The position numbers were made by a program, and so were the translations under genes. The notes below the pieces were generated by a model. It was not told the origin of the DNA. It saw only the letters and a list, made by a program, of their open reading frames with translations, and made no database searches. Below, one piece after another: positions 3,793 to 24,403 of a DNA stretch of 64,000 nt. The DNA comes from Odiellus spinosus (Eukaryota > Arthropoda > Arachnida > Opiliones > Phalangiidae), in assembly GCA_963920705.1 (NCBI GenBank), contig OY987227.1, positions 7,543,602 through 7,607,601 of the forward strand. The letters run 5' to 3'. Within the stretch, counting starts at the first letter, position 1. The number at the start of each line of letters is the position of its first letter.

Positions 3793-4197
3793 CCAATCAA
3801 AACAACTCCTTCGTCGCGCAATGGTCATTCTGAGAGCAACGGTACCAAGTCCTCCCTCGTTAACTCGACCCCTAAATCAACCCCGACCGCTTTATCCCGT
3901 CGCGTCTCTTCGGGTCCACCTTCGTTATCCAAGAGTTCCTCGACGCCCATTTCCGGCAGAACTTCCAGTTCGGCTCCCGTTGCCAAAAAGAGCTCGCCAC
4001 CGACTGATCCCAATATGTCCCAGTGCGCGATTTGCGGTAGGAATTTCGCCAAAGACCGAATCGAGAAACACGAGGTCATTTGTCAGAAGACGTCCATCAA
4101 GAAAAGGAAACCTTTCGACGCCACGAAGATGAGGGTCAAAGGGACCGAGGCCGAACAATTCGTGCGACGAGGTGCCCACAAAAAAGAGGACCCCAAG
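3793..4197 (+). CDS. ZC2HC1-family protein, exon with first C2HC zinc finger (copy A)
   Basis: The acceptor is TTTATTTCTCATCAG|CCA and the donor is AAG|GTTAGTG; both are phase 0. The first 75 residues are Ser/Thr/Pro-rich and probably disordered. They are followed by a C2HC finger, spaced CX2CX11HX3C (from CAICGRNF to HEVIC), and then QKTSIKKRKPFD. That order and wording are typical of the ZC2HC1A/B/C zinc-finger family, where a finger is followed by CQKT..KKRK.FD. Family members are small proteins with two such fingers and poorly known function. An identical exon lies at 21055-21459. The reading frame continues past the donor to a stop at 4275, but the splice site and family alignment favour ending at 4197. 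Confidence 0.88.
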
Positions 4198-5146
4198 GTT
4201 AGTGTGAGTAATAGCTATTGCAAATGGAAAATTATAAAGAGGGTGGATTTTAGAATGACCTATAAATCTCAATGAGTTATCGCGTGGCGGTTGAACCCAC
4301 GGACGGGTGTGTCCCCGATATTCCCCGTCGAGATTATTTCTAATCATTAAACGCCTACTTTATCGTCAAAACCAAAATATATAGAAAGTTCAGAGACATT
4401 GTCATTTGAAAACATAAGGTATCCGTGTAATAGTGAGTATTAAGAAACCCTTCAAAGCCCGCTTTGAACTACCCATTCTGTGCTCCAGCCATCCCGTGAG
4501 GTTTGATGTTCAGAAGAATTTTGGCCATTTAGTAGTATGCGTACACCAAGTTCAATAATTTGCAAGCAAACACTAATTTTAACTCTGCTTGTTACGAGTC
4601 ATGTGTAAGAAAGGTGACGTTTTGTGATGTACTGTTGCTACTAAATTACTATAAATTGTTTGTTAAAACTCTCTACTAGCACATTCACTCTCTCCAACTT
4701 TAGTCAGCTGAGAGTAATTAATTTTAGAATCGTCTACTATAGGCATAGTTATTTTTAGGCTTCAAGGTCCATGGGATTTGGGAATTTTTTCCTCATTTAA
4801 TTTTAAGTTCGTTGCAAGGGAGAGCTCGGCTAAAGGAAGTTTATCTCTATGGAAATTTTTTTCAAAAATTATAAATGAAAGGGAATCAAATTGCCAACTT
4901 CCAAAAATGTATTTAATGACATTCTTGGTCCCATTTTAACAACCTCTTAATGATTCGTTCGAGTTGTTCTAAGAAATTATCATTAATATTAAAATGTTTT
5001 CTCGTGAAGTCTGGTATACTAAATATTATAAACCAAAACATTTCTTAGGGAATTAGTCTTAAAGAGGTAGATGTTAGGCTTAATGATGTTTATCATAAAC
5101 TAAATAACATCTCATATCTTATTTTTTTTTCTTCTCGCTGCGTTAG
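4198..5146 (+). other. ZC2HC1 intron, copy A
   Basis: This 949-bp intron runs from GTTAGTG to a T-rich tract and GCGTTAG. Phase 0 is kept on both sides. No gene, tandem array or palindrome was noted inside. The same sequence recurs at 21460-22408. Confidence 0.8.
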
Positions 5147-5401
5147 TTGAACAAGAAAAATAATTGGAGAAGCAAACACGAAGAATTCATCAACAGCATT
5201 CGACAAGCCAAAATGGTCCAAAAACATTTGGAAGCCGGTGGAAAATTATCCGATTTACCACCGCCTAAACCGTCTGAAAACCCCGATTACGTCCCCTGTC
5301 CTCATTGCGGTCGCAAGTTCAATGAAGGCGTCGCTGAAAGACACATTCCAAAGTGCAAAAATATCGTTTCTAATAAGAAAACACCCATTAAGAAGAAATA
5401 A
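5147..5401 (+). CDS. ZC2HC1-family protein, terminal exon with second C2HC finger (copy A)
   Basis: This exon begins after CTGCGTTAG at the TTG codon (Leu, not a start) and ends at TAA. It reads NWRSKHEEFINSIRQAK, then a Pro-rich hinge, then a second CX2CX11HX3C finger (from CPHCGRKFNEG to HIPKC) and a Lys-rich tail ending TPIKKK. The NWR.KHEEFI motif followed by CP.C.R.FNE...RHI..C is the hallmark of the ZC2HC1 family, and it joins in frame to the exon at 3793-4197. Vertebrate homologues extend well beyond this finger, so this protein has a short C-terminus. AATAAA overlaps the stop codon. A full copy lies at 22409-22663 and a 5'-truncated one at 17300-17433. Confidence 0.9.
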   Translation: MNKKNNWRSKHEEFINSIRQAKMVQKHLEAGGKLSDLPPPKPSENPDYVPCPHCGRKFNEGVAERHIPKCKNIVSNKKTPIKKK

Positions 5402-6928
5402 ACTTAGTGGGGACCTTGATAGTCGAGGCCGAGGCTTAGCCTTTAGGGTTAAGTTAGTATAATTTTGAAAGGAAATCAAAAATTCTGAGAATAATTGCGA
5501 TGTATGTTCGGATTGAGACTAATAACTATATAATTTATCAATCAATAACAAAGTTTTAATTACTGTTTACTTTCTCTAGTACCATACCAGCTGGGTGGAT
5601 TAAGGGAATTTATGAACCCCTAATCCACCCCAGTTAGTACTTAGATTATTTAAAAACTATTGATGGGCTCGGTCTTTACTTTGGTAGGATATTAGACCAA
5701 GACCTCTGATTGTGCCTTTTATTACTTTGACCTTTATCATACGAATAGGTTGATCTCTATTTCAAAAACAAGTTGTGCCATGTGAAAAAAAAATCTATCT
5801 CGAAAATATCGACATTTTTAAACTCGTCCCCAGCTTTTCATCTGAAATTAAAGGAACCCATGGCTCCAAAATTTCGCCCCTGTAAGTAGAATCTTGTCAC
5901 GAGAGATCATCAATGCTGTTGGACGGCCAACATAGTTGGAGCCCAGCTTATGATCTTGAAAGAATAGAAAACAAGTAGCTAGTTCTCAAGCCTAAGATTC
6001 CTTTATAGTGTGCCGAAATTAATCCGTGTCCTTGTAGGACCTAAATAAACATACGTCCCAAAAATTTAACCACATCCTAATATTCCTATATTAGGGGGAC
6101 GAAATTAATCTACGTCCAATTAGGCCTAAATTAATCAGGTTCAGTTAATTTTAATTATTTTCGTTAATTTTAGAATAATTATTTGAACTTCTTTAACAGC
6201 ATTACACTTTTCAGTTGTTAATTCAAGTTGCCGGTGTTTTTTATGAGCCTCCGAATTTGTTTATTGCCGTATAAAGATGCCATAACAATACAGTGATGGG
6301 AATAGGATGGTTCTCTTAATTTTTCTCATTTATCTCTGACGTTATTATTATTTCTGGCATTTATTTTGAAGGGTTTAATTTTTTATTTTTATATAATTTC
6401 GTATTATAAATTTTAGTCTTAGTTTTATACCCAAAACTAATTATTTTCTTACCGTACTACAACTTTTAAAAATTGTCGTTTATGATACATGTATAAGAAT
6501 TTTGTAAATATTTAGAGAAAGGACCAGTGTTATCCATTTTAAAGGATAAAATTTTTTTCTATCACGTTAACTGTTAACTGAGGGGTTAACCACTAACGTA
6601 AAATCTGTACCGCAACAATTACTGTTACGTAATTGATTACGGCTTTGGTAATGCGCTATAAACGTACTCAGTTACGTAATCACTTAGTACACGTACAGGC
6701 TTGTACACTGATTACCGTTATCATACCCCTTGTAATACATAAATATTAATACATTGTTAAAATGTTAAAACTCTTCGGGAGCAGCTCTGTCTGGTTGTTT
6801 TAAGACACTTCAAAAAAATATGGTGGTTTCTAATTGTTAAATTTATATATTATTATAATAATCTAACAGGGTACAAATAAAAGTTCTACGTTCGTAATAA
6901 ACTTTAATTTTTTTCAGGTTTTTGAAAA
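5402..6928. other. 3' flank of ZC2HC1 copy A
   Basis: No further gene is seen. AAATAAAC at about 6038 could be a poly(A) signal. The segment 5403-5570 holds all seven substitutions seen between copy A and the other two copies. A short local inverted repeat (GGGTGGATTAAGGG..CCCCTAATCCACCC, about 5593-5630) and a run of ACGTAAT-type words (about 6620-6690) are the only other structures noted. Confidence 0.6.
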
Positions 6929-7116
6929 AGGCTTAACATTTTGTAAATTGAATTAGGCGCGAAGAAGAACCGCCAATCACGTTACGTGTAGTTTGAAACG
7001 TTTGACCTTGGATTAACATTATTAATCCAAGGTTTTACAGTCTGAATAAAGCACGTGGTTCTCGCGAGACTCGCGTGATTGGCTCATTTGGCTGAAGACT
7101 AATGGTGAGATTTGAA
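6929..7116. mobile_element. Palindromic MITE-like element, right end truncated (copy A)
   Basis: This equals the first 188 bp of the complete element at 24191-24403, which starts AGGCTTAAC and ends GTTAAGCCT around a central palindrome (CCTTGGATTAA..TTAATCCAAGG). In copy A it is cut after GATTTGAA at 7116 and joined to retroelement sequence. The right arm resembles dispersed copies at 42409-42525 and about 60926-61015. Confidence 0.7.
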
Positions 7117-7643
7117 TGGTTCGGAGGCCACCAGGGTAGCCCTTTGTCAGATCCCAATTAATAGATTGATGGTAGAGTCAAACGCCCCCATGATCAAACC
7201 TATTGGATTATCTATTCCCGATCACACTCCTTCTACTCCAGGAGTTATACATCCCCTCTTACATTTGATGGCTTCCATCCGAAAAGAACAGGTTTCCCAA
7301 CTGGCTTATCATATTAGGGACAATACTTATCGTGTTTTGGGAGTTTAAGTTGTTTTGTGATATTTCTTTCTGTTAAAGAATTTAGTGTCGACTTTGTTTC
7401 GGGTAGAAGCAGTTCTTTTTTTTTTGTAAGGCAGTGCCATTCTAGATCTTTTTTTTTTTGTTTTTGTTGTTTGTTTGCTTTACTGATTTTTTTTTTTTTT
7501 TTTTTTTCTCTTTTCTCATGATATGAAGTTCTTGCTCCATTTTGTATTTTGTCATAACCCACATTAAACCCTTGGTGTTCTTCCTTGCTGTTTTTATTTT
7601 TTTTTTTTCCTGATGATCTTTCATTATTTGTGGGGGGGGGTAT
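7117..7643 (+). mobile_element. Truncated 3' tail of a second copy of the retrotransposon
   Basis: This sequence matches 16386-16916 with no substitution that I could find, only homopolymer length changes (527 against 531 bp). It contains the last 77 codons and stop of ORF3 (stop ending at 7348), the T-rich 3' UTR and the G9 polypurine tract just before the LTR at 7644. It is therefore the 3' end of an upstream element sharing its LTR with the full element (tandem arrangement). Its 5' side is cut at the host MITE junction 7116/7117. Confidence 0.8.
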
Positions 7644-8026
7644 TGTAATGGGGACCCCTTTTACCCTTATAATGAAAGATCCCAAGCTTACCTAGGTTAA
7701 TCACTGCATGCTGTCAAATGGGACTTAAATATGCTTACAACCCCAGAGGAAACCTTCTATAGAGGGCGCCACCTAGAAGTTCATTATCACCAGGAATGTC
7801 ACATGACCAGGAAGACCTATAAATTCATGAGAACTCTACAGATGGGGGCAGATCGTAACCCTTGGGAATTGGTGGATGTTTGAACTCAGGATCGCTTGTT
7901 TTGGGAATTGATTAATTTAAAGTTATTTGTTGTATGATATATTTACTTTGAGATTAACCTTATTAAATTATATTTAAAGTGAACCTCGTTTGGTTATTAA
8001 CTAGTATACGAACTCACGCAGTTACA
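7644..8026 (+). repeat. 5' LTR
   Basis: The LTR is 383 bp long with TGTAA/TTACA inverted ends. It directly follows a G-run polypurine tract and is followed by AA and the primer binding site. A TATA-like box lies at 7818-7824 and an ATTAAA poly(A)-like hexamer at 7962-7967. The direct repeat shared with the 3' side is longer (from 7117), but the extra part is ORF3 tail, UTR and polypurine tract and does not belong to the LTR. Confidence 0.9.
7818..7824 (+). promoter_or_regulatory. Candidate TATA box in the 5' LTR
   Basis: TATAAAT lies about 175 bp into the LTR, and the same motif is at 17091-17097 in the 3' LTR. It is a plausible RNA polymerase II promoter element for the genomic transcript. 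This is by sequence match only. Confidence 0.45.
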
Positions 8027-8028
8027 AA

Positions 8029-8044
8029 TGGTGCCCCGGATGAC
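8029..8044 (+). other. Primer binding site (PBS)
   Basis: TGGTGCCCCGGATGAC starts two bases after the LTR end. The leading TGG is complementary to a tRNA CCA 3' end, and the position is where minus-strand priming occurs in LTR elements. The tRNA species is not assigned. A match to the 3' end of a host tRNA would settle it. Confidence 0.75.
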
Positions 8045-9082: not shown

Positions 9083-10582
9083 ATGTTAAGATTTTTTGGG
9101 ATATTAAGCCCTTTAGTGTTAATCATGTTTGGATTGTCGAATTTAGATTTGGGACTTTTAGTAGGGGTTTTGTGTTTCATATTAATGCTCTATGGATGTT
9201 TTTTCTCGGGGATGTATTCACATACTGATCCCATTCGAAAGGCTGGCATAATACCACCTGTATATCAGACCCCAGAGGAGACTGATTATCATACCCCTGC
9301 ACCAACTCCTCGTAGAACCCCTTTACGTAGGGCAAGATTTAGAAGTTTATCTGATTTAACTGATAGGAATACCGTTCAAAATGCTGAGAGAGAACTGTTT
9401 AATGAGGAACGATTAGTTGAGGCTATTTCTAATAGGGTTTGTGACAAATTTAGTAATAGACTAGAACATACAGAACAGGAGCTTAGGTTATTGACACAAG
9501 CAGCTCAAGAGAAACCTGTAACTAATCCTACCCAAATAAATACAGCAACTAATCCTAGTATGATAGACAAGGATATTCAGGCTCAGTTAGAAAAGGAACG
9601 GGAAGAGATTATTAGAGACCGTTGTGAATTGGAACAACAACACGTACTGTTAAGGCAGGCTCGAGAAGCCTTGGAGCAGCAAACATTGGGTGTTCAGAAT
9701 AGAATTATCCAGGATAGAAAGACACTTAATCAGGAACGATTGTTATTTGAGGATCAGGTACATGCGCATTTGCAAAGTAGATTACAACAGTTTAATTCTA
9801 TTGAAAGAGACCCTCCTCTGCCAGAACGAATGGAAATTTCAACTAGTGAAGGAAGTAATAATGACCCACAGGAAAATGAAGGGAATTTACCCCAGAGTTC
9901 CTGTGAAAGGGCTAATTGTGTCATAATAAGACATGTGGGAACTGACCCCGACCCTATATTATCGGGAGATGTCAATAGTGTAGTCCATCAAATTCCTCTG
10001 TCCTCTGCATCCCTGAGTTTAGGAAACCCTATCAGTTTACCCATTTCAAGTGGGGTAACAGTTAATTTAACTAGTTCAGGTATTTCGTCCTCGACGGGAA
10101 TAATATATTCTGTAGCCACTACTTCTCAAAATGCTAGTATAGTTAGCTCAGGTATGGGGGGTCCTATTTTACATTCAATTCCAATTGTTGCAAATACTGT
10201 TAGTGGAACGTCCGGAAGTTTTATACCTGCTCCTCTTAATATCCCTAGTTCAAGTATACAGACACCCACTGGGTTGGGAATGGGAAGTCCAATGTCTCCC
10301 CTAACCGTAGCGTTACCTGGTTCAATTCCCACAACAACATCGATTAGTTCAATGCCAATACTTAGTAATATACAGTTAGGAGGTCAAGCTAGACAACACT
10401 TGGGAGCTCATTATATTTTGAGTAAACAATTCCAAATGCCATCCTTTTCGGGGGAACCTAATGAAGATCCCAAGTTATTCCTACATACGTTGAGCGAATA
10501 TGTACAGTTTCATAACATACATTGCATCTTTTATTACCCAGGGTATTTACTAAAGGAGCTCAAGTATGGATTATGGATTTAA
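9083..10582 (+). CDS. gag: Gag, N-terminal part (membrane-like segments, coiled coil, start of capsid), frameshifted
   Basis: The frame opens at an ATG and reads for 499 codons. Residues 4-21 and 24-46 are strongly hydrophobic and could form a membrane hairpin, which is unusual for a Gag start. Residues about 105-245 are charged and heptad-like (RELFNEERL; QLEKEREEIIRDR), suggesting a coiled coil. A Ser/Gly/Ile-rich linker follows, and the capsid begins near residue 450 (FQMPSFSGEPNEDPKLFL). The capsid similarity leaves this frame near 10516-10535 and resumes in the -1 frame at 10522. The last 15-20 residues here are therefore out-of-frame, and the gene looks broken by a small indel. Gag would normally form the particle and package element RNA. 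Confidence 0.75.
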   Translation: MLRFFGILSPLVLIMFGLSNLDLGLLVGVLCFILMLYGCFFSGMYSHTDPIRKAGIIPPVYQTPEETDYHTPAPTPRRTPLRRARFRSLSDLTDRNTVQNAERELFNEERLVEAISNRVCDKFSNRLEHTEQELRLLTQAAQEKPVTNPTQINTATNPSMIDKDIQAQLEKEREEIIRDRCELEQQHVLLRQAREALEQQTLGVQNRIIQDRKTLNQERLLFEDQVHAHLQSRLQQFNSIERDPPLPERMEISTSEGSNNDPQENEGNLPQSSCERANCVIIRHVGTDPDPILSGDVNSVVHQIPLSSASLSLGNPISLPISSGVTVNLTSSGISSSTGIIYSVATTSQNASIVSSGMGGPILHSIPIVANTVSGTSGSFIPAPLNIPSSSIQTPTGLGMGSPMSPLTVALPGSIPTTTSISSMPILSNIQLGGQARQHLGAHYILSKQFQMPSFSGEPNEDPKLFLHTLSEYVQFHNIHCIFYYPGYLLKELKYGLWI

Positions 10583-11190
10583 TGTATAAAAATAACCGTA
10601 GATTGACCTGGAAAAATTTCATGACTGAATTTCATGTTAAATATTTATCCGATGACAGAGAAAGTTGTTTAGAGATGGCTCTTTTTGGAGCTTTAGCCCA
10701 GGATAATGATGACCTTTTGGATTTTAGACATAAGATAGTGAGATTGAATTGGTCATTGCGAGAACCTTTAACCGAAGATAGACTGGTTCGATTACTTGTG
10801 TCGAAACTCCCTCCGTCAGTTAAAATGTTATTACCTAGAAATACCTGTGGAACTATGGCACAATTTGATAGTGAAATACTAAGAATCCAAGAGTCACGAA
10901 ATAGTGGTGCTGCGTTACCTAGTCACATCATGGGTACAGTAAATCAGGGACGATATATTCCCCCTCCTTCGCCACGAAGATCAAATTCTTTACAAAGAAC
11001 GAATAATCCCCGACCTACTGGGACATCTAATTTTACTCCCACGTGTTTTAAGTGTCATGAAATTGGGCATATAAGTCGAAATTGTCCCAATGTAACACCC
11101 CAAATTAGTGCAGCTAATATAGTACAGCCAGGTTCACGGAGGATTGCTCCAACTACTAATCCTTCGGGAAACGAAACTCCAACTCTTTGA
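10522..11190 (+). CDS. gag: Gag, C-terminal part (rest of capsid and CCHC zinc knuckle)
   Basis: This continues Gag in the -1 frame relative to 9083-10582. It carries typical capsid wording (KGAQVWIMDL; TWKNFMTEFHVKYL), then a basic Pro/Asn-rich linker and a nucleocapsid knuckle CFKCHEIGHISRNC (CX2CX4HX4C) at about 11043-11084. It has no ATG near its start; the first codon is only the beginning of the open stretch. No canonical slippery heptamer lies in the overlap, so a mutation is more likely than programmed shifting inside the capsid. It ends at TGA, 16 bases after the GGGAAAC heptamer. Confidence 0.75.
   Translation: MHLLLPRVFTKGAQVWIMDLMYKNNRRLTWKNFMTEFHVKYLSDDRESCLEMALFGALAQDNDDLLDFRHKIVRLNWSLREPLTEDRLVRLLVSKLPPSVKMLLPRNTCGTMAQFDSEILRIQESRNSGAALPSHIMGTVNQGRYIPPPSPRRSNSLQRTNNPRPTGTSNFTPTCFKCHEIGHISRNCPNVTPQISAANIVQPGSRRIAPTTNPSGNETPTL
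11166..11172 (+). promoter_or_regulatory. Programmed -1 ribosomal frameshift heptamer (gag to pol)
   Basis: G GGA AAC sits exactly in gag phase (X XXY YYZ), shortly before the gag stop at 11188-11190. A -1 slip enters the pol frame, which is open from here to 15257. GGGAAAC is a known retroviral frameshift heptamer. A possible stem pairs ATGGACC (11191-11197) with GGTCCAT (11226-11232). Its 18-nt spacer is longer than usual, so another structure may be the stimulator. Confidence 0.8.
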
Positions 11191-14100
11191 ATGGACCGCA
11201 AGGAGCTGGGCAGGGACAAGGACAAGGTCCATCAATCAATTTAAATATGTACCAAGCCAACCAATCTAGATACAATTCTCTACATGGTATCAAAATAATA
11301 ATATGTAATAAAAATATAGTGGCCTTCCTCGATTCCGGTGCTGATAAAAGTGCTATTTCTGAAGAGTTCATTTATGAACTTGGGGTACCAACATTAGTAG
11401 AATACAAGCCTAGGGTTGTACAAATGGCAACCGATACTTTAACAGAAGAAACCTTGGGACATGTTACGCTTGAAATAGATTTGGGATTGAACATGGGCAT
11501 TATTCCCGTAAAATTTCATGTAATACCAGGTTTACGTCATCCCCTTATTTTGGGTAATGAACTGATTAGAGATATGAAGGCAGTTATTGATTATGATAAA
11601 GATACATTTTCTTATTGTGGGTTTACCTTGCCTTTAATACCTTTAAGCTCCAGTCAACCAACTCCAGTTAAGAACTTAACTGAAATTCCTCAAATAGATG
11701 TAAACCAATTAAACTTGGGAGAATCATTATTAGAATCTGAAACCAATGATCTGTTGTCTTTAAGTCAAGAGTTTCATACATTGTTTTCTGGAAAACCTGG
11801 AAGAACCCATTTGGTGAAACATCACATCAGACTTAAACCCGGCACGATACCTGTTAGTAAACAACCCTATTCTCATAGTCAATTTGTTAATGAGGAAATA
11901 GACAAGCAGATTCAGGATTTGTTACGACAGGGTATGATACGTCCCTCAGAAAGCCCCTGGGCTTCACCCATAATAATGGTAGATAAGAAAGATGCAAGGA
12001 AGGGAGATGGAAGAGATAGACGGATGTGTATCGATTTAACCGCATTGAATGCTGTAACAATTAATGACCCCTATCCTATCCCCAAGATAGATGAAATAAT
12101 TGATTCAATGGGTAAACCTAAATATATTACTAAATTAGATCTAAAATCAGGGTATTGGCAGATTGAAATGGCCCCTGAAGATATCGAGAAAACAGCTTTC
12201 GTAACTAGAGACGGTAAATATGAATGGTTGGTCATGCCATTTGGCCTCAAGGGGGCACCGTCCAGCTTTATGCGTTTAATTAATAGAGTTTTAAGGTATG
12301 CCAGAAGATACGGGGTTGGAATTTACCTAGATGACATAATTATTGCAAGTCAAACCTGGTCGGATCATTTGATAGCTTTGCGCTATGTGTTTTCCCAATT
12401 GAAACATGCTGGCCTTACTCTTAATCTAAGCAAAAGTTATTTTGGTGTAACGCAGGTCTCAGTATTGGGATATATAGTTAGTGCCCAGGGAGTTCAAATT
12501 GATCCTGACAAAGTAAGAGCTATTATCGAATTCCCAACCCCTCGAAATGTTAAACAAGTGTCTTCCTTTTTGGGTATGTGTGGCTATCACACTAGATTTA
12601 TTCCCAGATTAGCCGATTTTACGGCTCCATTGAATAAATTAAAAAGGAAATATCATAGATGGCGCTGGGGCGAAGATGAACATAATGCTTTTGAGGAATT
12701 GAAATACCTAATAGCCAATGCAGCCATGCTTCAGGTACCTACACCTGATGGAAAGTATATCATAACAGCTGATGCTAGTGGGACAGGTATTGGGGGCATG
12801 CTAAGTCAAATCCAGGATAAAAATGAAGTTACCTTAGCTTATTTTAGTAAATTGTTGACCCCTGCACAGCTAAAGTATAGTACCCCGGAACAAGAAGCCC
12901 TTGCAGTTATTGAAACCGTTAGGAAATTCCGACATTATATAGAGGGAAGAAATTTTGCAATAGTATCAGATCATCGTGCCCTTTGCTGGTTACTTAAACT
13001 TAAAAATAAAAAGAGCAGATTAATGAGATGGGCCCTAGAATTACAAGAATTTATGCCCTTTGAAATTTTACACAAATCTGGTAGTGAAAATCATGTAGCT
13101 GATGCCCTATCTAGATGCCCCGTATCAGATTTACATTCTGTTAGTCCCAAGAATATTGATATGCAAGAACCCGAGGATTTAAGACCTATTAATTTCAATA
13201 CCTTAGCATGTAATCCTGGTCTTAATGTGTCACATTTGGATTTTGTTACCATGGATGAAATCAAAGAAGCTCAAAAATCTGATCCCAAATGGATTGATTT
13301 AAGAACTAGGTTAGATAACAATGAACCATCAAGAGTATATGAAATTAGAGAGGACCTAATCTATAGAAAACCTGAAGGATTCCAACCAGCGAAGGTGGTG
13401 ATTCCTAGTAATTTAATACCGAGGTTACTACAAGCCTATCACGATCATCCCTTGTCAGGTCATCGAGGCAGAACCGCTACCTATGCAAAAATTAGGGCTC
13501 GTTATTATCACCCCCAATTATATACACTGGTTAAGAAATATGTTAAAGAATGTGAAATTTGTCAGAGATATAAGAGTAGAAATACAAAGCGCCCAGGTCT
13601 TATGATACCTTCATATAAGATACACCCAGGAGATTTGGTGGGAATAGACATTATGGGTCCTTTACCTTGTACAAAAAATCAAAATCGATTCCTGGTAGTA
13701 ATGGTTGATTATTTTACGAAATATGTCGAAGTTTTTCCCGTTAGAAGTACTACGGCTCCAATATTATGTAAGGTGTTACTTCAGTATATTTCTAGGCACG
13801 GTACTATGGCTGCTATTTTGTCGGATAACGGACCCCAATTTATATCTAATCTTTGGAAACAGTTATGTCATAAATTGAAAATTAAGGTTAAATTTACTTC
13901 TCCTTATCATCCCCAGGCCAATATGACAGAACGAGTAAATAGAGTTATGGGAGAAATTATGAGTATATATACTGGAAATGTACATACGAAATGGGATGAA
14001 AATTTACCATTAATTCAGTTAGCCATTAATAGTACAGTACATATATCCACTGGTTATTCCCCATTTTATCTCCATCACGGTTATGAACCCACATTGCCCT

Positions 14101-15257
14101 GGGATGAAAGAAGTTTTGAGGGTGTTCCTGTTAATGTAGAGACAGTTCTAGAGTATGAGAAAGGACCTATTTACGATTGGCAAATAGCTATAGATTTTGC
14201 ACAGGAAATAAATGAACTAGCTAGTATGAAACAGAAGTACTTTTATGATAAAAATTATACCAATAGCGAACTTGAGGTGGGACAGTTGGTATGGAAGCTG
14301 GGACATAGATTGTCGAATGCCGCAGCTAAATTTTCTGCTAAGTTTGCACCTCGTTGGGAAGGCCCCTATCGAATTGTAGAAAAGATTTCCCCGGTGAGTT
14401 ATGTAATAATGGAGATGAGTACAGGAGCCCTTGCTGGTACCTGGCATATTAACCAATTAAAATTATATATGTGTACTGCATCCCTAGACACACAGGAAGT
14501 CTTGGAACCTGAGGTTAACCCTACTGTTGTTATAGAGCCCGTTGCTGAAGAACCCTCTATAGATCCCGATCAAACGTTTGTAATGTTCCCCTCAAGTAAC
14601 ACTGCTCCGGTAGAAATTGAAGAGGATTCAGAATTAATAGAAGTTATTGTGATACAGGATAGTTTGAATTCTGTCGGACAAAGAGAATCTTCCTCGTCCT
14701 TGGTCCCTTATTTTAACCAACCAGATACCAGTTTAGAAACTTTAGATGAGTCTATGGTAGATAATACAGAGGAACTATTGAATGAAAGAAATTTAATTGA
14801 TCAAACAGGCAGTTCGGTAATTGTTGAGGAACCTTCTAGTGGTAGCGAGAATGAGGAACCTCCTCGGTATAACTTAAGGCCTAGAGTCAGATTTTCAAAT
14901 CCCCTCATAGAGGAAATACCAGTTGTTTTGCATCCAGTTACTGATCAACAAAACCCAGCTTTTACTACTGACCTTGGGGAAACTACGGATAAGAATGAAG
15001 TTGAAAACCCGTTATTAAAACCTTTTTCTTATGGTTGGCATAGGGAAGTGGTATTCCGTAGGTCTCAAGCTTCTCGTCTAGGCGACGTTTATTATTATAC
15101 CCCAGGCCCGAATGTTAGAAAGTTGCGTTCGTTTAATGATATTGAGGATTATTTAATATTACATACAGTTGCACCCCAGATTCTGAATAGGTCTAACTTT
15201 ACTATGAAACCTATACCGGTTGCTTCTCCCCCATACGAAATAGTACGCCATTCGTGA
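11187..15257 (+). CDS. pol: Pol polyprotein: protease, reverse transcriptase, RNase H, integrase, MBD-like C-terminus
   Basis: This intact frame of 1356 codons is entered by a -1 shift at 11166-11172; the TTG at 11187 is not a true start. Residues are counted from there. The protease has FLDSGADKSA with D49. The RT has D318 and YLDD (380-383). RNase H has D529, D595 and D639 (HVADALSR). The integrase has an HHCC zinc motif (H754, H759, C789, C792) and catalytic D821, D880 and E915, with 34 residues between the last two, then a GPY module (1059-1061). A low-complexity acidic region and RYNLRPR (1227-1233) follow. Residues about 1277-1325 match methyl-CpG-binding domains: GWHREVVFR, GDVYYYTP, LRSFNDIEDYL. 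That domain sits where chromoviruses have a chromodomain, suggesting a role in integration targeting. No stop or frameshift was seen. Confidence 0.93.
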   Translation: MNGPQGAGQGQGQGPSINLNMYQANQSRYNSLHGIKIIICNKNIVAFLDSGADKSAISEEFIYELGVPTLVEYKPRVVQMATDTLTEETLGHVTLEIDLGLNMGIIPVKFHVIPGLRHPLILGNELIRDMKAVIDYDKDTFSYCGFTLPLIPLSSSQPTPVKNLTEIPQIDVNQLNLGESLLESETNDLLSLSQEFHTLFSGKPGRTHLVKHHIRLKPGTIPVSKQPYSHSQFVNEEIDKQIQDLLRQGMIRPSESPWASPIIMVDKKDARKGDGRDRRMCIDLTALNAVTINDPYPIPKIDEIIDSMGKPKYITKLDLKSGYWQIEMAPEDIEKTAFVTRDGKYEWLVMPFGLKGAPSSFMRLINRVLRYARRYGVGIYLDDIIIASQTWSDHLIALRYVFSQLKHAGLTLNLSKSYFGVTQVSVLGYIVSAQGVQIDPDKVRAIIEFPTPRNVKQVSSFLGMCGYHTRFIPRLADFTAPLNKLKRKYHRWRWGEDEHNAFEELKYLIANAAMLQVPTPDGKYIITADASGTGIGGMLSQIQDKNEVTLAYFSKLLTPAQLKYSTPEQEALAVIETVRKFRHYIEGRNFAIVSDHRALCWLLKLKNKKSRLMRWALELQEFMPFEILHKSGSENHVADALSRCPVSDLHSVSPKNIDMQEPEDLRPINFNTLACNPGLNVSHLDFVTMDEIKEAQKSDPKWIDLRTRLDNNEPSRVYEIREDLIYRKPEGFQPAKVVIPSNLIPRLLQAYHDHPLSGHRGRTATYAKIRARYYHPQLYTLVKKYVKECEICQRYKSRNTKRPGLMIPSYKIHPGDLVGIDIMGPLPCTKNQNRFLVVMVDYFTKYVEVFPVRSTTAPILCKVLLQYISRHGTMAAILSDNGPQFISNLWKQLCHKLKIKVKFTSPYHPQANMTERVNRVMGEIMSIYTGNVHTKWDENLPLIQLAINSTVHISTGYSPFYLHHGYEPTLPWDERSFEGVPVNVETVLEYEKGPIYDWQIAIDFAQEINELASMKQKYFYDKNYTNSELEVGQLVWKLGHRLSNAAAKFSAKFAPRWEGPYRIVEKISPVSYVIMEMSTGALAGTWHINQLKLYMCTASLDTQEVLEPEVNPTVVIEPVAEEPSIDPDQTFVMFPSSNTAPVEIEEDSELIEVIVIQDSLNSVGQRESSSSLVPYFNQPDTSLETLDESMVDNTEELLNERNLIDQTGSSVIVEEPSSGSENEEPPRYNLRPRVRFSNPLIEEIPVVLHPVTDQQNPAFTTDLGETTDKNEVENPLLKPFSYGWHREVVFRRSQASRLGDVYYYTPGPNVRKLRSFNDIEDYLILHTVAPQILNRSNFTMKPIPVASPPYEIVRHS
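15015..15161 (+). other. MBD-like domain segment of Pol
   Basis: These codons encode the C-terminal domain with the MBD signature: GW, REVV.R, DVYYY.P, and LRS followed by a helix ending in YL. By alignment to MBD1, the Arg of VFR, the Asp and Tyr of DVYY and the Arg-Ser of LRS correspond to the methyl-CpG contact residues R22, D32, Y34, R44 and S45. The loop between DVYYYTP and LRS is two residues longer than in MBD1 or MeCP2. Binding to methylated DNA is inferred and untested. Confidence 0.75.
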
Positions 15258-15285: not shown

Positions 15286-16617
15286 ATGCCCTTATCTAGA
15301 GGGAATTATAGAGGAATGCTGCCTAGGTCGGTGGGTCATTCGCGGCCCCCAGTTCCTTCTGACTATGAACAACAACTCCAAGATGCAATTAGACGTATAC
15401 AAGCTTTGGAAGCTATACGCATCGCTGATATTACTAATGGGCAATTAGCTACTACATCCACTTTGCAGTCACATGTGATGGTGGCTTCTGTACGTACAGA
15501 GGAAACTGAGGAACCTTCTATACCGGAGACCGACAATTCTTCCTCAATCCAGTTAACATCCCCATCATCTATGATAATGGATGCCGTACCTCCATTACCT
15601 GTGAATGAAGGTCGTACTACATCCCTGGAACAATTATCGACAGCTTCGGGAGAAAATGTACCTGGTACTACAGTGGTACCTACTACGGAGATCGTCCAAC
15701 CAGTCAATTCTTCTGGGGCCACATCGGCTACTGATGCAAGTTCCGAAACTCAAGCAATTCCCATAAATATCCCACCAGCGCAGGACAGCCCGGTCATCCC
15801 ATATGTAGACATTCTATTTTCATTAGGACTTTTCACACATGAACAGAAATTAACGATTCCATTCCACAAATACGTTGAATCACACCCCAGGTTATTCCCC
15901 GGAAATTTTGAGGGATGTATAGTCCATGTGGGATCGAAACCGGAAGACTTGAATTCCTCCATACTCCTCCAGTATGGCAAAACCCCTGGAGTGTTTATGG
16001 TAGTGGGGATTTCCCCCATATTTTCCCAGGCATTTTGTAGTGGAAATTTGGGTCCCATAGTAAAAGATTGCCTTGGCTATTCAGGTGTTAGAGGCGTGGG
16101 AAATATCGGGCTGGACTATACACCCTCGGTACTGGCATCATGCTCTCAAACCCAACAAAAGTTTGCATTCAGTAAACAGCTCCTTATTGCTAAAGAAAGG
16201 GGCCAACCAGTATTTATTCATTGTAGGTTAGCCTTTAACGATTGTATCACAATCCTGCAACAGGAACTTCCTACGAATCATCCCATTATACTCCTCACTT
16301 TTACGGGCAATGTTTCTCAGGTTAGACAATGTTTGGGTTCATTTTCGCGAATCTATTTCGCATTTAGTCCCTTATTAGCCCGGTTTGGTTCGGAGGCCAC
16401 CAGGGTAGCCCTTTGTCAGATCCCAATTAATAGATTGATGGTAGAGTCAAACGCCCCCATGATCAAACCTATTGGATTATCTATTCCCGATCACACTCCT
16501 TCTACTCCAGGAGTTATACATCCCCTCTTACATTTGATGGCTTCCATCCGAAAAGAACAGGTTTCCCAACTGGCTTATCATATTAGGGACAATACTTATC
16601 GTGTTTTGGGAGTTTAA
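15286..16617 (+). CDS. ORF3: Ser/Thr-rich leader fused to a TatD-like hydrolase fold with degraded active site
   Basis: The frame has 443 codons from an ATG 28 nt after the pol stop. Residues 1-165 are low complexity and rich in Ser, Thr, Pro and Glu, with a short helix-like start (YEQQLQDAIRRIQALEAIR). Residues about 170-443 follow the TatD metal-dependent nuclease family (TATDN type): GVRGVGNIGLDY, Q..FAFSKQLLIAKERGQPVFIHCR, LTFTGNVSQV, IPINRLMVESNAP, and a helical tail ending NTYRVLGV. Six positions that bind metal in TatD (HxH, E, H, H, D) read L177, S179, N273, H312, L337 and N389, so only one is kept. The fold is probably retained without hydrolysis. The last 77 codons recur in the tail at 7117-7348. 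ORF3 takes the place of env; no signal peptide or membrane segment is evident. Confidence 0.85.
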   Translation: MPLSRGNYRGMLPRSVGHSRPPVPSDYEQQLQDAIRRIQALEAIRIADITNGQLATTSTLQSHVMVASVRTEETEEPSIPETDNSSSIQLTSPSSMIMDAVPPLPVNEGRTTSLEQLSTASGENVPGTTVVPTTEIVQPVNSSGATSATDASSETQAIPINIPPAQDSPVIPYVDILFSLGLFTHEQKLTIPFHKYVESHPRLFPGNFEGCIVHVGSKPEDLNSSILLQYGKTPGVFMVVGISPIFSQAFCSGNLGPIVKDCLGYSGVRGVGNIGLDYTPSVLASCSQTQQKFAFSKQLLIAKERGQPVFIHCRLAFNDCITILQQELPTNHPIILLTFTGNVSQVRQCLGSFSRIYFAFSPLLARFGSEATRVALCQIPINRLMVESNAPMIKPIGLSIPDHTPSTPGVIHPLLHLMASIRKEQVSQLAYHIRDNTYRVLGV

Positions 16618-16901
16618 GTTGTTTTGTGATATTTCTTTCTGTTAAAGAATTTAGTGTCGACTTTGTTTCGGGTAGAAGCAGTTCTTTTTTTTTTGTAAGG
16701 CAGTGCCATTCTAGATCTTTTTTTTTTTTGTTTTTGTTGTTTGTTTGCTTTACTGATTTTTTTTTTTTTTTTTTTTTTTCTCTTTTCTCATGATATGAAG
16801 TTCTTGCTCCATTTTGTATTTTGTCATAACCCACATTAAACCCTTGGTGTTCTTCCTTGCTGTTTTTATTTTTTTTTTTTCCTGATGATCTTTCATTATT
16901 T
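16618..16901 (+). other. Retrotransposon 3' UTR with T-tracts
   Basis: The region between the ORF3 stop and the polypurine tract contains three long T runs (about 10 to 23 T). The duplicate at 7349-7631 differs only in the length of such runs. No coding potential is seen. Confidence 0.7.
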
Positions 16902-16916
16902 GTGGGGGGGGGGTAT
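16902..16916 (+). other. Polypurine tract
   Basis: GTG10TAT lies immediately 5' of the LTR start TGTAATGGGG, where the plus-strand primer is made. The equivalent before the 5' LTR (7632-7640) has nine G. It supports placing the LTR start at 16917. Confidence 0.65.
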
Positions 16917-17299
16917 TGTAATGGGGACCCCTTTTACCCTTATAATGAAAGATCCCAAGCTTACCTAGGTTAATCACTGCATGCTGTCAAATGGGACTTA
17001 AATATGCTTACAACCCCAGAGGAAACCTTCTATAGAGGGCGCCACCTAGAAGTTCATTATCACCAGGAATGTCACATGACCAGGAAGACCTATAAATTCA
17101 TGAGAACTCTACAGATGGGGTCAGATCGTAACCCTTAGGAATTGGTGGATGTTTGAACTCAGGATCGCTTGTTTTGGGAATTGATTAATTTAAAGTTATT
17201 TGTTGTATGATATATTTACTTTGAGATTAACCTTATTAAATTATATTTAAAGTGAACCTCGTTTGGTTATTAACTAGTATACGAACTCACGCAGTTACA
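16917..17299 (+). repeat. 3' LTR
   Basis: This LTR is 383 bp long, TGTAA to TTACA, and identical to the 5' LTR except for G to T at 17121 and G to A at 17137. It ends directly against ZC2HC1 exon sequence (AACCGTCTG), equivalent to position 5268 in copy A, so the element entered a coding exon. Confidence 0.9.
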
Positions 17300-17433
17300 A
17301 ACCGTCTGAAAACCCCGATTACGTCCCCTGTCCTCATTGCGGTCGCAAGTTCAATGAAGGCGTCGCTGAAAGACACATTCCAAAGTGCAAAAATATCGTT
17401 TCTAATAAGAAAACACCCATTAAGAAGAAATAA
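17300..17433 (+). pseudogene. ZC2HC1 terminal exon fragment, 5'-truncated by the LTR
   Basis: This holds the second half of the terminal exon, including the whole second C2HC finger and the stop at 17431-17433. The NWR.KHEEFI part and the splice acceptor are absent, replaced by the LTR. The frame is still open but it cannot be spliced normally. Bases after the stop match copy B, not copy A. Confidence 0.9.
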
Positions 17434-19140
17434 ATTTAGTGGGGACCTTGATAGTCGAGGCCGAGGCTTAGCCTTTAGGCTTAAGTTAGTATAATTTTGA
17501 AAGGAAATCAAAAATTCTGAGAATAATTGAGATGTATGTTCGGATTGAGACTACTAACTATATAATTAATCAATCAATAACAACGTTTTAATTACTGTAT
17601 ACTTTCTCTAGTACCATACCAGCTGGGTGGATTAAGGGAATTTATGAACCCCTAATCCACCCCAGTTAGTACTTAGATTATTTAAAAACTATTGATGGGC
17701 TCGGTCTTTACTTTGGTAGGATATTAGACCAAGACCTCTGATTGTGCCTTTTATTACTTTGACCTTTATCATACGAATAGGTTGATCTCTATTTCAAAAA
17801 CAAGTTGTGCCATGTGAAAAAAAAATCTATCTCGAAAATATCGACATTTTTAAACTCGTCCCCAGCTTTTCATCTGAAATTAAAGGAACCCATGGCTCCA
17901 AAATTTCGCCCCTGTAAGTAGAATCTTGTCACGAGAGATCATCAATGCTGTTGGACGGCCAACATAGTTGGAGCCCAGCTTATGATCTTGAAAGAATAGA
18001 AAACAAGTAGCTAGTTCTCAAGCCTAAGATTCCTTTATAGTGTGCCGAAATTAATCCGTGTCCTTGTAGGACCTAAATAAACATACGTCCCAAAAATTTA
18101 ACCACATCCTAATATTCCTATATTAGGGGGACGAAATTAATCTACGTCCAATTAGGCCTAAATTAATCAGGTTCAGTTAATTTTAATTATTTTCGTTAAT
18201 TTTAGAATAATTATTTGAACTTCTTTAACAGCATTACACTTTTCAGTTGTTAATTCAAGTTGCCGGTGTTTTTTATGAGCCTCCGAATTTGTTTATTGCC
18301 GTATAAAGATGCCATAACAATACAGTGATGGGAATAGGATGGTTCTCTTAATTTTTCTCATTTATCTCTGACGTTATTATTATTTCTGGCATTTATTTTG
18401 AAGGGTTTAATTTTTTATTTTTATATAATTTCGTATTATAAATTTTAGTCTTAGTTTTATACCCAAAACTAATTATTTTCTTACCGTACTACAACTTTTA
18501 AAAATTGTCGTTTATGATACATGTATAAGAATTTTGTAAATATTTAGAGAAAGGACCAGTGTTATCCATTTTAAAGGATAAAATTTTTTTCTATCACGTT
18601 AACTGTTAACTGAGGGGTTAACCACTAACGTAAAATCTGTACCGCAACAATTACTGTTACGTAATTGATTACGGCTTTGGTAATGCGCTATAAACGTACT
18701 CAGTTACGTAATCACTTAGTACACGTACAGGCTTGTACACTGATTACCGTTATCATACCCCTTGTAATACATAAATATTAATACATTGTTAAAATGTTAA
18801 AACTCTTCGGGAGCAGCTCTGTCTGGTTGTTTTAAGACACTTCAAAAAAATATGGTGGTTTCTAATTGTTAAATTTATATATTATTATAATAATCTAACA
18901 GGGTACAAATAAAAGTTCTACGTTCGTAATAAACTTTAATTTTTTTCAGGTTTTTGAAAAAGGCTTAACATTTTGTAAATTGAATTAGGCGCGAAGAAGA
19001 ACCGCCAATCACGTTACGTGTAGTTTGAAACGTTTGACCTTGGATTAACATTATTAATCCAAGGTTTTACAGTCTGAATAAAGCACGTGGTTCTCGCGAG
19101 ACTCGCGTGATTGGCTCATTTGGCTGAAGACTAATGGTGA
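17434..19140. repeat. Third copy of the ZC2HC1 3' flank, ending in a truncated MITE
   Basis: The sequence repeats 5402-7109 and 22664-24371. It carries the copy-B alleles at the seven variable sites. The palindromic element that starts at about 18961 is cut after CTAATGGTGAG, and the minisatellite of copy B follows at once. The junction has no more than one or two bases of shared sequence. Confidence 0.88.
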
Positions 19141-20982
19141 GTTGTGATCGTGAGAGATATGTCTCGCGGTTGTGATCGTGAGAGATATGTCTCGCGGTTG
19201 TGATCGTGAGAGATATGTCTCGCGGTTGTGATCGTGAGAGATATGTCTCGCGGTTGTGATCGTGAGAGATATGTCTCGCGGTTGTGATCGTGAGAGATAT
19301 GTCTCGCGGTTGTGATCGTGAGAGATATGTCTCGCGGTTGTGATCGTGAGAGATATGTCTCGCGGTTGTGATCGTGAGAGATATGTCTCGCGGTTGTGAT
19401 CGTGAGAGATATGTCTCGCGGTTGTGATCGTGAGAGATATGTCTCGCGGTTGTGATCGTGAGAGATATGTCTCGCGGTTGTGATCGTGAGAGATATGTCT
19501 CGCGGTTGTGATCGTGAGAGATATGTCTCGCGGTTGTGATCGTGAGAGATATGTCTCGCGGTTGTGATCGTGAGAGATATGTCTCGCGGTTGTGATCGTG
19601 AGAGATATGTCTCGCGGTTGTGATCGTGAGAGATATGTCTCGCGGTTGTGATCGTGAGAGATATGTCTCGCGGTTGTGATCGTGAGAGATATGTCTCGCG
19701 GTTGTGATCGTGAGAGATATGTCTCGCGGTTGTGATCGTGAGAGATATGTCTCGCGGTTGTGATCGTGAGAGATATGTCTCGCGGTTGTGATCGTGAGAG
19801 ATATGTCTCGCGGTTGTGATCGTGAGAGATATGTCTCGCGGTTGTGATCGTGAGAGATATGTCTCGCGGTTGTGATCGTGAGAGATATGTCTCGCGGTTG
19901 TGATCGTGAGAGATATGTCTCGCGGTTGTGATCGTGAGAGATATGTCTCGCGGTTGTGATCGTGAGAGATATGTCTCGCGGTTGTGATCGTGAGAGATAT
20001 GTCTCGCGGTTGTGATCGTGAGAGATATGTCTCGCGGTTGTGATCGTGAGAGATATGTCTCGCGGTTGTGATCGTGAGAGATATGTCTCGCGGTTGTGAT
20101 CGTGAGAGATATGTCTCGCGGTTGTGATCGTGAGAGATATGTCTCGCGGTTGTGATCGTGAGAGATATGTCTCGCGGTTGTGATCGTGAGAGATATGTCT
20201 CGCGGTTGTGATCGTGAGAGATATGTCTCGCGGTTGTGATCGTGAGAGATATGTCTCGCGGTTGTGATCGTGAGAGATATGTCTCGCGGTTGTGATCGTG
20301 AGAGATATGTCTCGCGGTTGTGATCGTGAGAGATTTGTCTCGCGGTTGTGATCGTGAGAGATATGTCTCGCCGTTGTGATCGTGAGAGATATGTCTCGCC
20401 GTTGTGATCGTGAGAGATATGTCTCGCCGTTGTGATCGTGAGAGATATGTCTCGCGGTTGTGATCGTGAGAGATATGTCTCGCGGTTGTGATCGTGAGAG
20501 ATATGTCTCGCGGTTGTGATCGTGAGAGATATGTCTCGCGGTTGTGATCGTGAGAGATATGTCTCGCGGTTGTGATCGTGAGAGATATGTCTCGCGGTTG
20601 TGATCGTGAGAGATATGTCTCGCGGTTGTGATCGTGAGAGATATGTCTCGCGGTTGTGATCGTGAGAGATATGTCTCGCGGTTGTGATCGTGAGAGATAT
20701 GTCTCGCGGTTGTGATCGTGAGAGATATGTCTCGCGGTTGTGATCGTGAGAGATATGTCTCGCGGTTGTGATCGTGAGAGATATGTCTCGCGGTTGTGAT
20801 CGTGAGAGATATGTCTCGCGGTTGTGATCGTGAGAGATATGTCTCGCGGTTGTGATCGTGAGAGATATGTCTCGCGGTTGTGATCGTGAGAGATATGTCT
20901 CGCGGTTGTGATCGTGAGAGATATGTCTCGCGGTTGTGATCGTGAGAGATATGTCTCGCGGTTGTGATCGTAAGATATATCT
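19141..20982. repeat. Minisatellite, 28-bp units, copy B
   Basis: About 65 units are of the same family as 1157-3720, but without the 26-bp block and without exon 1027-1125. It shares the AGATTTGTCT unit (about 20334) and CTCGCCG units (three here, two in copy A), so units were gained or lost after duplication. Confidence 0.95.
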
Positions 20983-21054
20983 TGAAGTCGGTCGCAAGTT
21001 ATACTACGCGAAAATCTGCTTATTTGGTCCATCTTAATGTTTATTTCTCATCAG

Positions 21055-21459
21055 CCAATCAAAACAACTCCTTCGTCGCGCAATGGTCATTCTGAGAGCA
21101 ACGGTACCAAGTCCTCCCTCGTTAACTCGACCCCTAAATCAACCCCGACCGCTTTATCCCGTCGCGTCTCTTCGGGTCCACCTTCGTTATCCAAGAGTTC
21201 CTCGACGCCCATTTCCGGCAGAACTTCCAGTTCGGCTCCCGTTGCCAAAAAGAGCTCGCCACCGACTGATCCCAATATGTCCCAGTGCGCGATTTGCGGT
21301 AGGAATTTCGCCAAAGACCGAATCGAGAAACACGAGGTCATTTGTCAGAAGACGTCCATCAAGAAAAGGAAACCTTTCGACGCCACGAAGATGAGGGTCA
21401 AAGGGACCGAGGCCGAACAATTCGTGCGACGAGGTGCCCACAAAAAAGAGGACCCCAAG
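21055..21459 (+). CDS. ZC2HC1-family protein, exon with first C2HC finger (copy B)
   Basis: This is identical in protein sequence to 3793-4197, with the same acceptor (CTCATCAG) and donor (AAG|GTTAGTG), and it contains the first CX2CX11HX3C finger. No copy of the upstream exon (1027-1125) precedes it, so copy B lacks its own 5' part. It could be used only by long-range splicing from the exon at 1027, by a new start, or not at all. Its frame is intact. Confidence 0.8.
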
Positions 21460-22408
21460 GTTAGTGTGAGTAATAGCTATTGCAAATGGAAAATTATAAA
21501 GAGGGTGGATTTTAGAATGACCTATAAATCTCAATGAGTTATCGCGTGGCGGTTGAACCCACGGACGGGTGTGTCCCCGATATTCCCCGTCGAGATTATT
21601 TCTAATCATTAAACGCCTACTTTATCGTCAAAACCAAAATATATAGAAAGTTCAGAGACATTGTCATTTGAAAACATAAGGTATCCGTGTAATAGTGAGT
21701 ATTAAGAAACCCTTCAAAGCCCGCTTTGAACTACCCATTCTGTGCTCCAGCCATCCCGTGAGGTTTGATGTTCAGAAGAATTTTGGCCATTTAGTAGTAT
21801 GCGTACACCAAGTTCAATAATTTGCAAGCAAACACTAATTTTAACTCTGCTTGTTACGAGTCATGTGTAAGAAAGGTGACGTTTTGTGATGTACTGTTGC
21901 TACTAAATTACTATAAATTGTTTGTTAAAACTCTCTACTAGCACATTCACTCTCTCCAACTTTAGTCAGCTGAGAGTAATTAATTTTAGAATCGTCTACT
22001 ATAGGCATAGTTATTTTTAGGCTTCAAGGTCCATGGGATTTGGGAATTTTTTCCTCATTTAATTTTAAGTTCGTTGCAAGGGAGAGCTCGGCTAAAGGAA
22101 GTTTATCTCTATGGAAATTTTTTTCAAAAATTATAAATGAAAGGGAATCAAATTGCCAACTTCCAAAAATGTATTTAATGACATTCTTGGTCCCATTTTA
22201 ACAACCTCTTAATGATTCGTTCGAGTTGTTCTAAGAAATTATCATTAATATTAAAATGTTTTCTCGTGAAGTCTGGTATACTAAATATTATAAACCAAAA
22301 CATTTCTTAGGGAATTAGTCTTAAAGAGGTAGATGTTAGGCTTAATGATGTTTATCATAAACTAAATAACATCTCATATCTTATTTTTTTTTCTTCTCGC
22401 TGCGTTAG
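21460..22408 (+). other. ZC2HC1 intron, copy B
   Basis: This is the same length (949 bp) and sequence as 4198-5146 by eye, with donor and acceptor intact. No other feature is seen. Confidence 0.8.
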
Positions 22409-22663
22409 TTGAACAAGAAAAATAATTGGAGAAGCAAACACGAAGAATTCATCAACAGCATTCGACAAGCCAAAATGGTCCAAAAACATTTGGAAGCCGG
22501 TGGAAAATTATCCGATTTACCACCGCCTAAACCGTCTGAAAACCCCGATTACGTCCCCTGTCCTCATTGCGGTCGCAAGTTCAATGAAGGCGTCGCTGAA
22601 AGACACATTCCAAAGTGCAAAAATATCGTTTCTAATAAGAAAACACCCATTAAGAAGAAATAA
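22409..22663 (+). CDS. ZC2HC1-family protein, terminal exon with second C2HC finger (copy B)
   Basis: This exon has the same protein sequence as 5147-5401: the NWRSKHEEF motif, a Pro-rich hinge, the second C2HC finger, a Lys-rich tail and a TAA stop. The acceptor GCGTTAG is kept. The bases after the stop differ from copy A at seven sites within about 165 bp. With 21055-21459 it forms an intact two-exon 3' half of the gene. Confidence 0.82.
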   Translation: MNKKNNWRSKHEEFINSIRQAKMVQKHLEAGGKLSDLPPPKPSENPDYVPCPHCGRKFNEGVAERHIPKCKNIVSNKKTPIKKK

Positions 22664-24190
22664 ATTTAGTGGGGACCTTGATAGTCGAGGCCGAGGCTTA
22701 GCCTTTAGGCTTAAGTTAGTATAATTTTGAAAGGAAATCAAAAATTCTGAGAATAATTGAGATGTATGTTCGGATTGAGACTACTAACTATATAATTAAT
22801 CAATCAATAACAACGTTTTAATTACTGTATACTTTCTCTAGTACCATACCAGCTGGGTGGATTAAGGGAATTTATGAACCCCTAATCCACCCCAGTTAGT
22901 ACTTAGATTATTTAAAAACTATTGATGGGCTCGGTCTTTACTTTGGTAGGATATTAGACCAAGACCTCTGATTGTGCCTTTTATTACTTTGACCTTTATC
23001 ATACGAATAGGTTGATCTCTATTTCAAAAACAAGTTGTGCCATGTGAAAAAAAAATCTATCTCGAAAATATCGACATTTTTAAACTCGTCCCCAGCTTTT
23101 CATCTGAAATTAAAGGAACCCATGGCTCCAAAATTTCGCCCCTGTAAGTAGAATCTTGTCACGAGAGATCATCAATGCTGTTGGACGGCCAACATAGTTG
23201 GAGCCCAGCTTATGATCTTGAAAGAATAGAAAACAAGTAGCTAGTTCTCAAGCCTAAGATTCCTTTATAGTGTGCCGAAATTAATCCGTGTCCTTGTAGG
23301 ACCTAAATAAACATACGTCCCAAAAATTTAACCACATCCTAATATTCCTATATTAGGGGGACGAAATTAATCTACGTCCAATTAGGCCTAAATTAATCAG
23401 GTTCAGTTAATTTTAATTATTTTCGTTAATTTTAGAATAATTATTTGAACTTCTTTAACAGCATTACACTTTTCAGTTGTTAATTCAAGTTGCCGGTGTT
23501 TTTTATGAGCCTCCGAATTTGTTTATTGCCGTATAAAGATGCCATAACAATACAGTGATGGGAATAGGATGGTTCTCTTAATTTTTCTCATTTATCTCTG
23601 ACGTTATTATTATTTCTGGCATTTATTTTGAAGGGTTTAATTTTTTATTTTTATATAATTTCGTATTATAAATTTTAGTCTTAGTTTTATACCCAAAACT
23701 AATTATTTTCTTACCGTACTACAACTTTTAAAAATTGTCGTTTATGATACATGTATAAGAATTTTGTAAATATTTAGAGAAAGGACCAGTGTTATCCATT
23801 TTAAAGGATAAAATTTTTTTCTATCACGTTAACTGTTAACTGAGGGGTTAACCACTAACGTAAAATCTGTACCGCAACAATTACTGTTACGTAATTGATT
23901 ACGGCTTTGGTAATGCGCTATAAACGTACTCAGTTACGTAATCACTTAGTACACGTACAGGCTTGTACACTGATTACCGTTATCATACCCCTTGTAATAC
24001 ATAAATATTAATACATTGTTAAAATGTTAAAACTCTTCGGGAGCAGCTCTGTCTGGTTGTTTTAAGACACTTCAAAAAAATATGGTGGTTTCTAATTGTT
24101 AAATTTATATATTATTATAATAATCTAACAGGGTACAAATAAAAGTTCTACGTTCGTAATAAACTTTAATTTTTTTCAGGTTTTTGAAAA
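22664..24190. other. 3' flank of ZC2HC1 copy B
   Basis: The sequence equals 5402-6928 apart from the seven clustered substitutions. No gene is recognised in it. Confidence 0.7.
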
Positions 24191-24403
24191 AGGCTTAACA
24201 TTTTGTAAATTGAATTAGGCGCGAAGAAGAACCGCCAATCACGTTACGTGTAGTTTGAAACGTTTGACCTTGGATTAACATTATTAATCCAAGGTTTTAC
24301 AGTCTGAATAAAGCACGTGGTTCTCGCGAGACTCGCGTGATTGGCTCATTTGGCTGAAGACTAATGGTGAGATTTGAAACTTTCCATGCCCCTTGTTAAG
24401 CCT
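24191..24403. mobile_element. Complete palindromic MITE-like element
   Basis: The element is 213 bp, from AGGCTTAAC to GTTAAGCCT. Arms share CCAATCACG/CGTGATTGG blocks, and the centre is a perfect inverted repeat around CCTTGGATTAA. It is the only untruncated copy in the locus; both duplication junctions (7116 and about 19141) fall in its right arm. The right-arm sequence GAGATTTGAAACT...TTAAGCCTAC is echoed at 42490-42530. Confidence 0.7.

Follow-up and report, generated by a model that had tools for sequence, protein, structure and literature searches.

TATDN2, a TatD protein of Class II that is named '3'-5' RNA nuclease TATDN2-like' in some records, has been tied to R-loop resolution in vertebrates. 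PMC12709183 describes the human protein as an R-loop-resolving RNase and reports that medaka lacking tatdn2 accumulate more R-loops and have fewer primordial germ cells. Enzymes are also known to have been captured by retroelements. In the long terminal repeat (LTR) retrotransposons of bdelloid rotifers, a third open reading frame (ORF3) in the env (envelope) position encodes a GDSL esterase or a DEDDy exonuclease, with invariant residues reported intact save for a change of DEDD to DEED, and the text examined makes no mention of TatD (PMC5408684). Here, we analyze a window of 64,000 nucleotides from Odiellus spinosus (contig OY987227.1), in which one Ty3/gypsy-type LTR element carries an ORF3 of 443 aa in the env position (15286..16617, + strand). 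Like the bdelloid proteins, this ORF3 is hydrolase-derived and not an envelope protein; it differs from them in its fold, which is that of TatD, and in having lost most of its active-site residues. It is this metal-less, TatD-type character that appears to be new. A literature search found no report of such an ORF3 in a retroelement, although full texts may hold a mention; passages of PMC7264820 do not mention TatD, and PMC6962438 names TATDN2 beside transposon-derived genes in a squid Hox cluster.

The preliminary description of this locus considered the frame to be intact and the protein to be a TatD homologue, and both points are borne out. The frame is open over all 443 codons; at the same base composition, 442 codons free of stops would arise with a probability of about 5e-11. 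The first part of the protein (aa 1-170; 15286..15795, + strand) is basic over 24 residues and then acidic and Ser/Thr-rich, with no cysteine and no domain match. The second part (aa 171-443; 15796..16614, + strand) is a TatD-type TIM barrel. This assignment is based on a match to the Pfam profile PF01026 over aa 212-441 (profile 31-252 of 253; 105.5 bits, cut-off 27; E=4e-30), on sequence matches in the Protein Data Bank to YcfH (1yix, 3.5e-12) and TatD (1.6e-11), and on a confident structure prediction, in which aa 1-150 were left out. With Pfam up to an E-value of 10, the only match besides TatD_DNase is to an aminotransferase (0.21), and neither a GDSL nor a DEDDy domain is found. An identity as Env is ruled out, because no 19-aa hydropathy window reaches 1.6 (maximum 1.45) and no RxKR or RxRR furin site is present; in view of the enzyme fold, we regard the broader notion of an Env-like or capsid-associated structural protein, which the env position would suit, as highly improbable. 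As a candidate splice acceptor for a subgenomic ORF3 mRNA, the AG directly before the ORF3 ATG has an average score with a simple matrix, ranking 110 of 552 within the element.

To compare the active site, we used the best 80 of 201 confirmed bacterial and phage TatD loci by likeness to ORF3, together with three from IMG/VR. One of these 83 (L035) was dropped by length, leaving 82 rows, and another (L081, which holds X) was left out of an 81-row alignment. The residue calls made previously proved correct: the columns of N273, H312, L337 and N389 hold E, H, H and D, respectively, in 82/82 rows each, with the conservation of H312 being partly built in, since the patterns used for retrieval contained this residue and accepted either E or N at position 273. 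S243 occupies the column of the GxHP histidine, found in 79/82. These ligands are nearly invariant also in 120 listed TATDN2-type relatives, and, unlike in ORF3, they are present in E. coli TatD and YcfH and in human TATDN1 and TATDN3. Six of the seven active-site residues are gone from ORF3, H312 being the exception; R314, E387, D277 and Q291 are also kept. Because the E, H, H, D metal site is absent, we consider ORF3 a TatD-fold homologue and do not class it as a TatD nuclease.

The count of five losses out of six given in the preliminary description holds for N273, L337 and N389, but for L177 and S179 it is conditional. The N-terminal motif of the 82 bacterial and phage proteins is HxH in 31, GxN in 49 and AxN in 1 (1 is unreadable), and L177-F-S179 belongs to neither class; the Class I (G/A)xN motif is likewise not found in ORF3. 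TATDN1 and TatD represent the (G/A)xN group, and TATDN3 and YcfH the HxH group (PMC10085689). Loss of HxH is therefore ruled out as proof of inactivity, given that 50/82 TatDs do without it and that Class I enzymes are active (same source). L177 and S179 can be called losses only on the premise of a Class II ancestor, a group in which, among the listed TATDN2-type matches, H is found in 113/114 at each position.

A Class II ancestor is suggested by insertions that ORF3 shares with TATDN2. Comparison of 120 TATDN2-type rows (of 7515 matches) with 15 bacterial rows picked by hand from the 82 reveals Class II-specific insertions at ORF3 residues 182-192, 218-220 and 353-354; the N-terminal one (182-192) and the two-residue one (353-354) are filled in only 0-1/15 bacterial rows. 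The likeness to TATDN2 extends to the fold, the N-terminal insert, an FPxxFxGC motif and the two-residue insert before strand 7. In a tree of 40 TATDN2-type sequences, retained after thinning, and 24 bacterial rows picked by hand, ORF3 joins TATDN2 on a branch with 100/100 support, but its own end branch is so long, and the topology tests given below so permissive, that this grouping is only tentative. The best identities are 27% to TATDN2 and 26% to the 15 bacterial rows. ORF3 differs from TATDN2 in that it is at most 27% identical, in that it is located in a retroelement, and in that HxH, E, H, H and D are all present in the TATDN2-type rows, where ORF3 has H312 only. On this comparative evidence, we assign the barrel a TATDN2-like ancestry with moderate confidence. 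A CCHC zinc knuckle (PF00098) is found in 41/120 of the listed TATDN2-type relatives; the hosts named for such proteins include the corals Pocillopora and Montipora and the sponge Halichondria (P0029, P0042, P0109).

Loss of the metal site was not accompanied by a comparable loss of the scaffold. Across the 19 columns that are at least 95% conserved in both sets, ORF3 keeps 1/5 active-site residues versus 13/14 others (Fisher one-sided p=0.006); in the TATDN2-invariant columns alone, it keeps 1/7 versus 24/37 (p=0.019). This preferential retention argues against plain decay. In addition, the barrel has a net charge of +6, a value reached by 7 of the 98 TATDN2-type domains covered over >85% and by 0/82 bacterial and phage proteins, where ORF3 and the TATDN2 domains are being compared with whole bacterial proteins. 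So basic a barrel is unusual and in line with nucleic-acid binding. The earlier proposal of selection for a non-catalytic role is supported in part: the fold, the loss of the metal site and the preferential retention of the scaffold are upheld, and the basic barrel fits nucleic-acid binding in particular, whereas capsid interaction and interference with a host nuclease are hypothetical. For selection on ORF3 itself, the evidence is indirect and consists of a frame still open after long divergence and of the non-random pattern of retained residues.

The explanation we favor, at somewhat better than even odds taken as a whole, is that ORF3 is a TATDN2-like TatD barrel captured by a Ty3/gypsy-type LTR retrotransposon, its metal site gone, and kept as a non-cutting, nucleic-acid-binding accessory. 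The element would have captured a TATDN2-like (Class II) gene whose product consists of a domain-less N-terminal arm and a C-terminal TatD barrel. This barrel would no longer cut phosphodiesters; now basic, it would bind nucleic acid, with RNA and the RNA:DNA hybrid of reverse transcription as the likeliest ligands, such that ORF3 persists in the element lineage. Possibly, it also occupies a substrate otherwise attacked by a host TATDN2-type nuclease. An accessory of this kind, perhaps shielding RNA or hybrids during reverse transcription, seems to us the most economical mechanism. Maelstrom and EXD1, inactive DEDD nuclease derivatives in which RNA binding is kept (PMC5408684), provide a precedent for a dead nuclease fold retained to bind RNA; they differ from ORF3 in fold and in being host genes. 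If this explanation is true, the TatD fold alone, without its metal site, can serve a retroelement, and TATDN2-type hybrid nucleases may be among the factors that work against reverse transcription in the germ line of animals.

Several observations weigh against this explanation. The evidence comes from a single independent ORF3 sequence: the second ORF3 piece in the window, codons 368-443, is identical at 232/232 bases and probably represents the same insertion in duplicate. In the copy studied, the reading frame of gag is interrupted at about 10.5 kb; the preliminary description's view of an otherwise young element is thus upheld by the LTRs, which differ at 2 of 383 sites, but not by gag, and we consider the copy young but not intact. 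In the tree, the ORF3 end branch is extremely long, at 5.1 changes per site, and approximately unbiased (AU) tests reject neither a position of ORF3 outside TATDN2 (p 0.24) nor one with Class I (p 0.08). The broken gag and the long branch would suit a history in which an active TATDN2-like gene was captured, was of no use to the element, and has simply mutated in this copy. We nevertheless find such a passenger in decay unlikely, albeit the foremost of the alternatives, given the 443 open codons, the contrast between scaffold and active site, the confident predicted fold, and the stops that neutral drift to at most 27% identity would be expected to bring.

The placement of the first metal motif also varied. 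L177/S179 align with it in the larger bacterial alignments (82 and 81 rows) and in those with TATDN2 relatives, whereas MAFFT with 38 and 31 other rows puts the motif at E198, and MAFFT with full-length ORF3 at residue 61. The latter two placings are ruled out by the larger row sets and the TATDN2 alignments. A second structure model has ORF3 173-179 as the first strand, in agreement with L177/S179, but was itself built on the 81-row alignment; the first model, whose rows were trimmed of the motif, does not define this strand (pLDDT, the predicted local distance difference test, <50).

Mutants of the human enzymes likewise caution against equating lost ligands with lost activity. In TATDN1, H149A, H174A and D222A leave the exonuclease nearly intact, E112A lowers activity and E112Q raises it, and H77A reduces AP (apurinic/apyrimidinic)-endonuclease activity tenfold; in TATDN3, D218A costs 30-fold (PMC10085689). 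Single losses are thus often tolerated, and residual activity of ORF3 is possible. Moreover, the intercalating Arg119 of TATDN1 maps by motif order to P280, although TATDN2 likewise shows no conservation in this column. ORF3 could accordingly still be a nuclease, with a remodeled or single-metal site formed by H312, E387, D277, N273 and N389; the retention of H312, R314, E387, D277 and Q291 would suit this, as does the activity of several TATDN1 single mutants. We judge it distinctly unlikely, because ORF3 lacks the N-terminal motif, the Glu, the second His and the Asp all at once, and because E, H, H and D are present in all 82 bacterial and phage rows, with retrieval patterns that favored H312. 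With six of seven contacts lost at once, as judged by presumed motif order for the TATDN1 numbers, it is likely, though not proven, that ORF3 no longer hydrolyzes phosphodiesters.

ORF3 might alternatively be a host decoy that mimics TATDN2 and competes for R-loop or hybrid substrates, or for partners, in germ cells. The TATDN2-like insertions and the medaka and human findings above (PMC12709183) point this way; we hold this idea to be unlikely and rate it slightly below that of a remodeled nuclease.

Relatives of ORF3 were sought in further collections. In the protein collection, whole ORF3 has 0/5461 candidates at E 0.001 and the TatD domain 0/404 at E 10. In IMG/VR, nothing was confirmed with an exact 28-mer, ORF3, pol, P0025 or the ORF3+TATDN2 alignment; the ORF3+TatD alignment yielded the three loci whose TatD ORFs entered the reference set. 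Yasminevirus A0A5K0U911 is the sole match in BFVD below E 0.001, and PHROGs contains no match.

The element is bounded by two 383-bp LTRs, both on the + strand, at 7644..8026 (5' LTR, TG...CA) and 16917..17299 (3' LTR). A putative primer-binding site, TGGTGCCCCGGATGAC (8029..8044, + strand), directly follows the 5' LTR, and a polypurine tract with a G run lies at 16904..16913 (+ strand). The gag region (9083..11190, + strand) comprises two overlapping frames (9083-10582 and 10522-11190) with a CCHC knuckle (zf-CCHC, 25.2 bits, cut-off 20.8) and a weak Retrotrans_gag match (17.2 bits versus a cut-off of 24.1). By Pfam, pol (11187..15257, + strand) encodes aspartic protease (PR), reverse transcriptase (RT), RNase H (RH) and integrase (IN; H2C2, rve, SH3-like), in the usual order PR-RT-RH-IN. 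The LTR pair, priming sites, knuckle and domain order identify an LTR retrotransposon of Ty3/gypsy type. The Gag N-terminus (9083-9220) is strongly hydrophobic, with 27 19-residue windows of at least 1.6 within aa 1-46; this is, in our view, unusual for Gag, and may reflect either a hairpin in the membrane or a misassigned start codon.

Chromodomain-tailed Ty3/gypsy integrases are known. The present pol similarly ends in a module of chromatin-reader type, which here is MBD/TAM-like (aa 1273-1334; 15003..15188, + strand; PF01429, E=3.9e-9, 36.5 bits versus a cut-off of 21); the nearest solved chains are BAZ2B/BAZ2A (1.3e-4 to 1e-3). This tail may serve chromatin targeting in the chromodomain's stead. 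A more elaborate scenario combines it with ORF3: a captured host TATDN2-type R-loop nuclease would have become a dead decoy that, in germ cells, shields the element's own reverse-transcription hybrids or keeps host TATDN2 from acting, alongside a methyl-CpG-binding-type integrase tail. A pseudo-enzyme that arose in this way from an arms race, and that takes the place of env, is speculative and, in our estimate, unlikely.

The element is positioned at a unit junction within a host tandem array with a unit of ~5.2 kb and zf-C2HC_2 exons (3738-7116 and 17299-24378). A second copy has left its 3' end directly before the 5' LTR (7117..7643, + strand); this remnant comprises ORF3 codons 368-443 with the stop, the 3' noncoding region and the polypurine tract; 7117-8028 and 16386-17301 are 99.3% identical (blastn). 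Given this arrangement, both copies appear to share the 5' LTR. Elsewhere in the window, a minisatellite-like repeat is visible among the listed ORFs at 19.1-21.0 kb, and a block at 45001-52000 with a GC skew near -0.5 is probably a tandem repeat.
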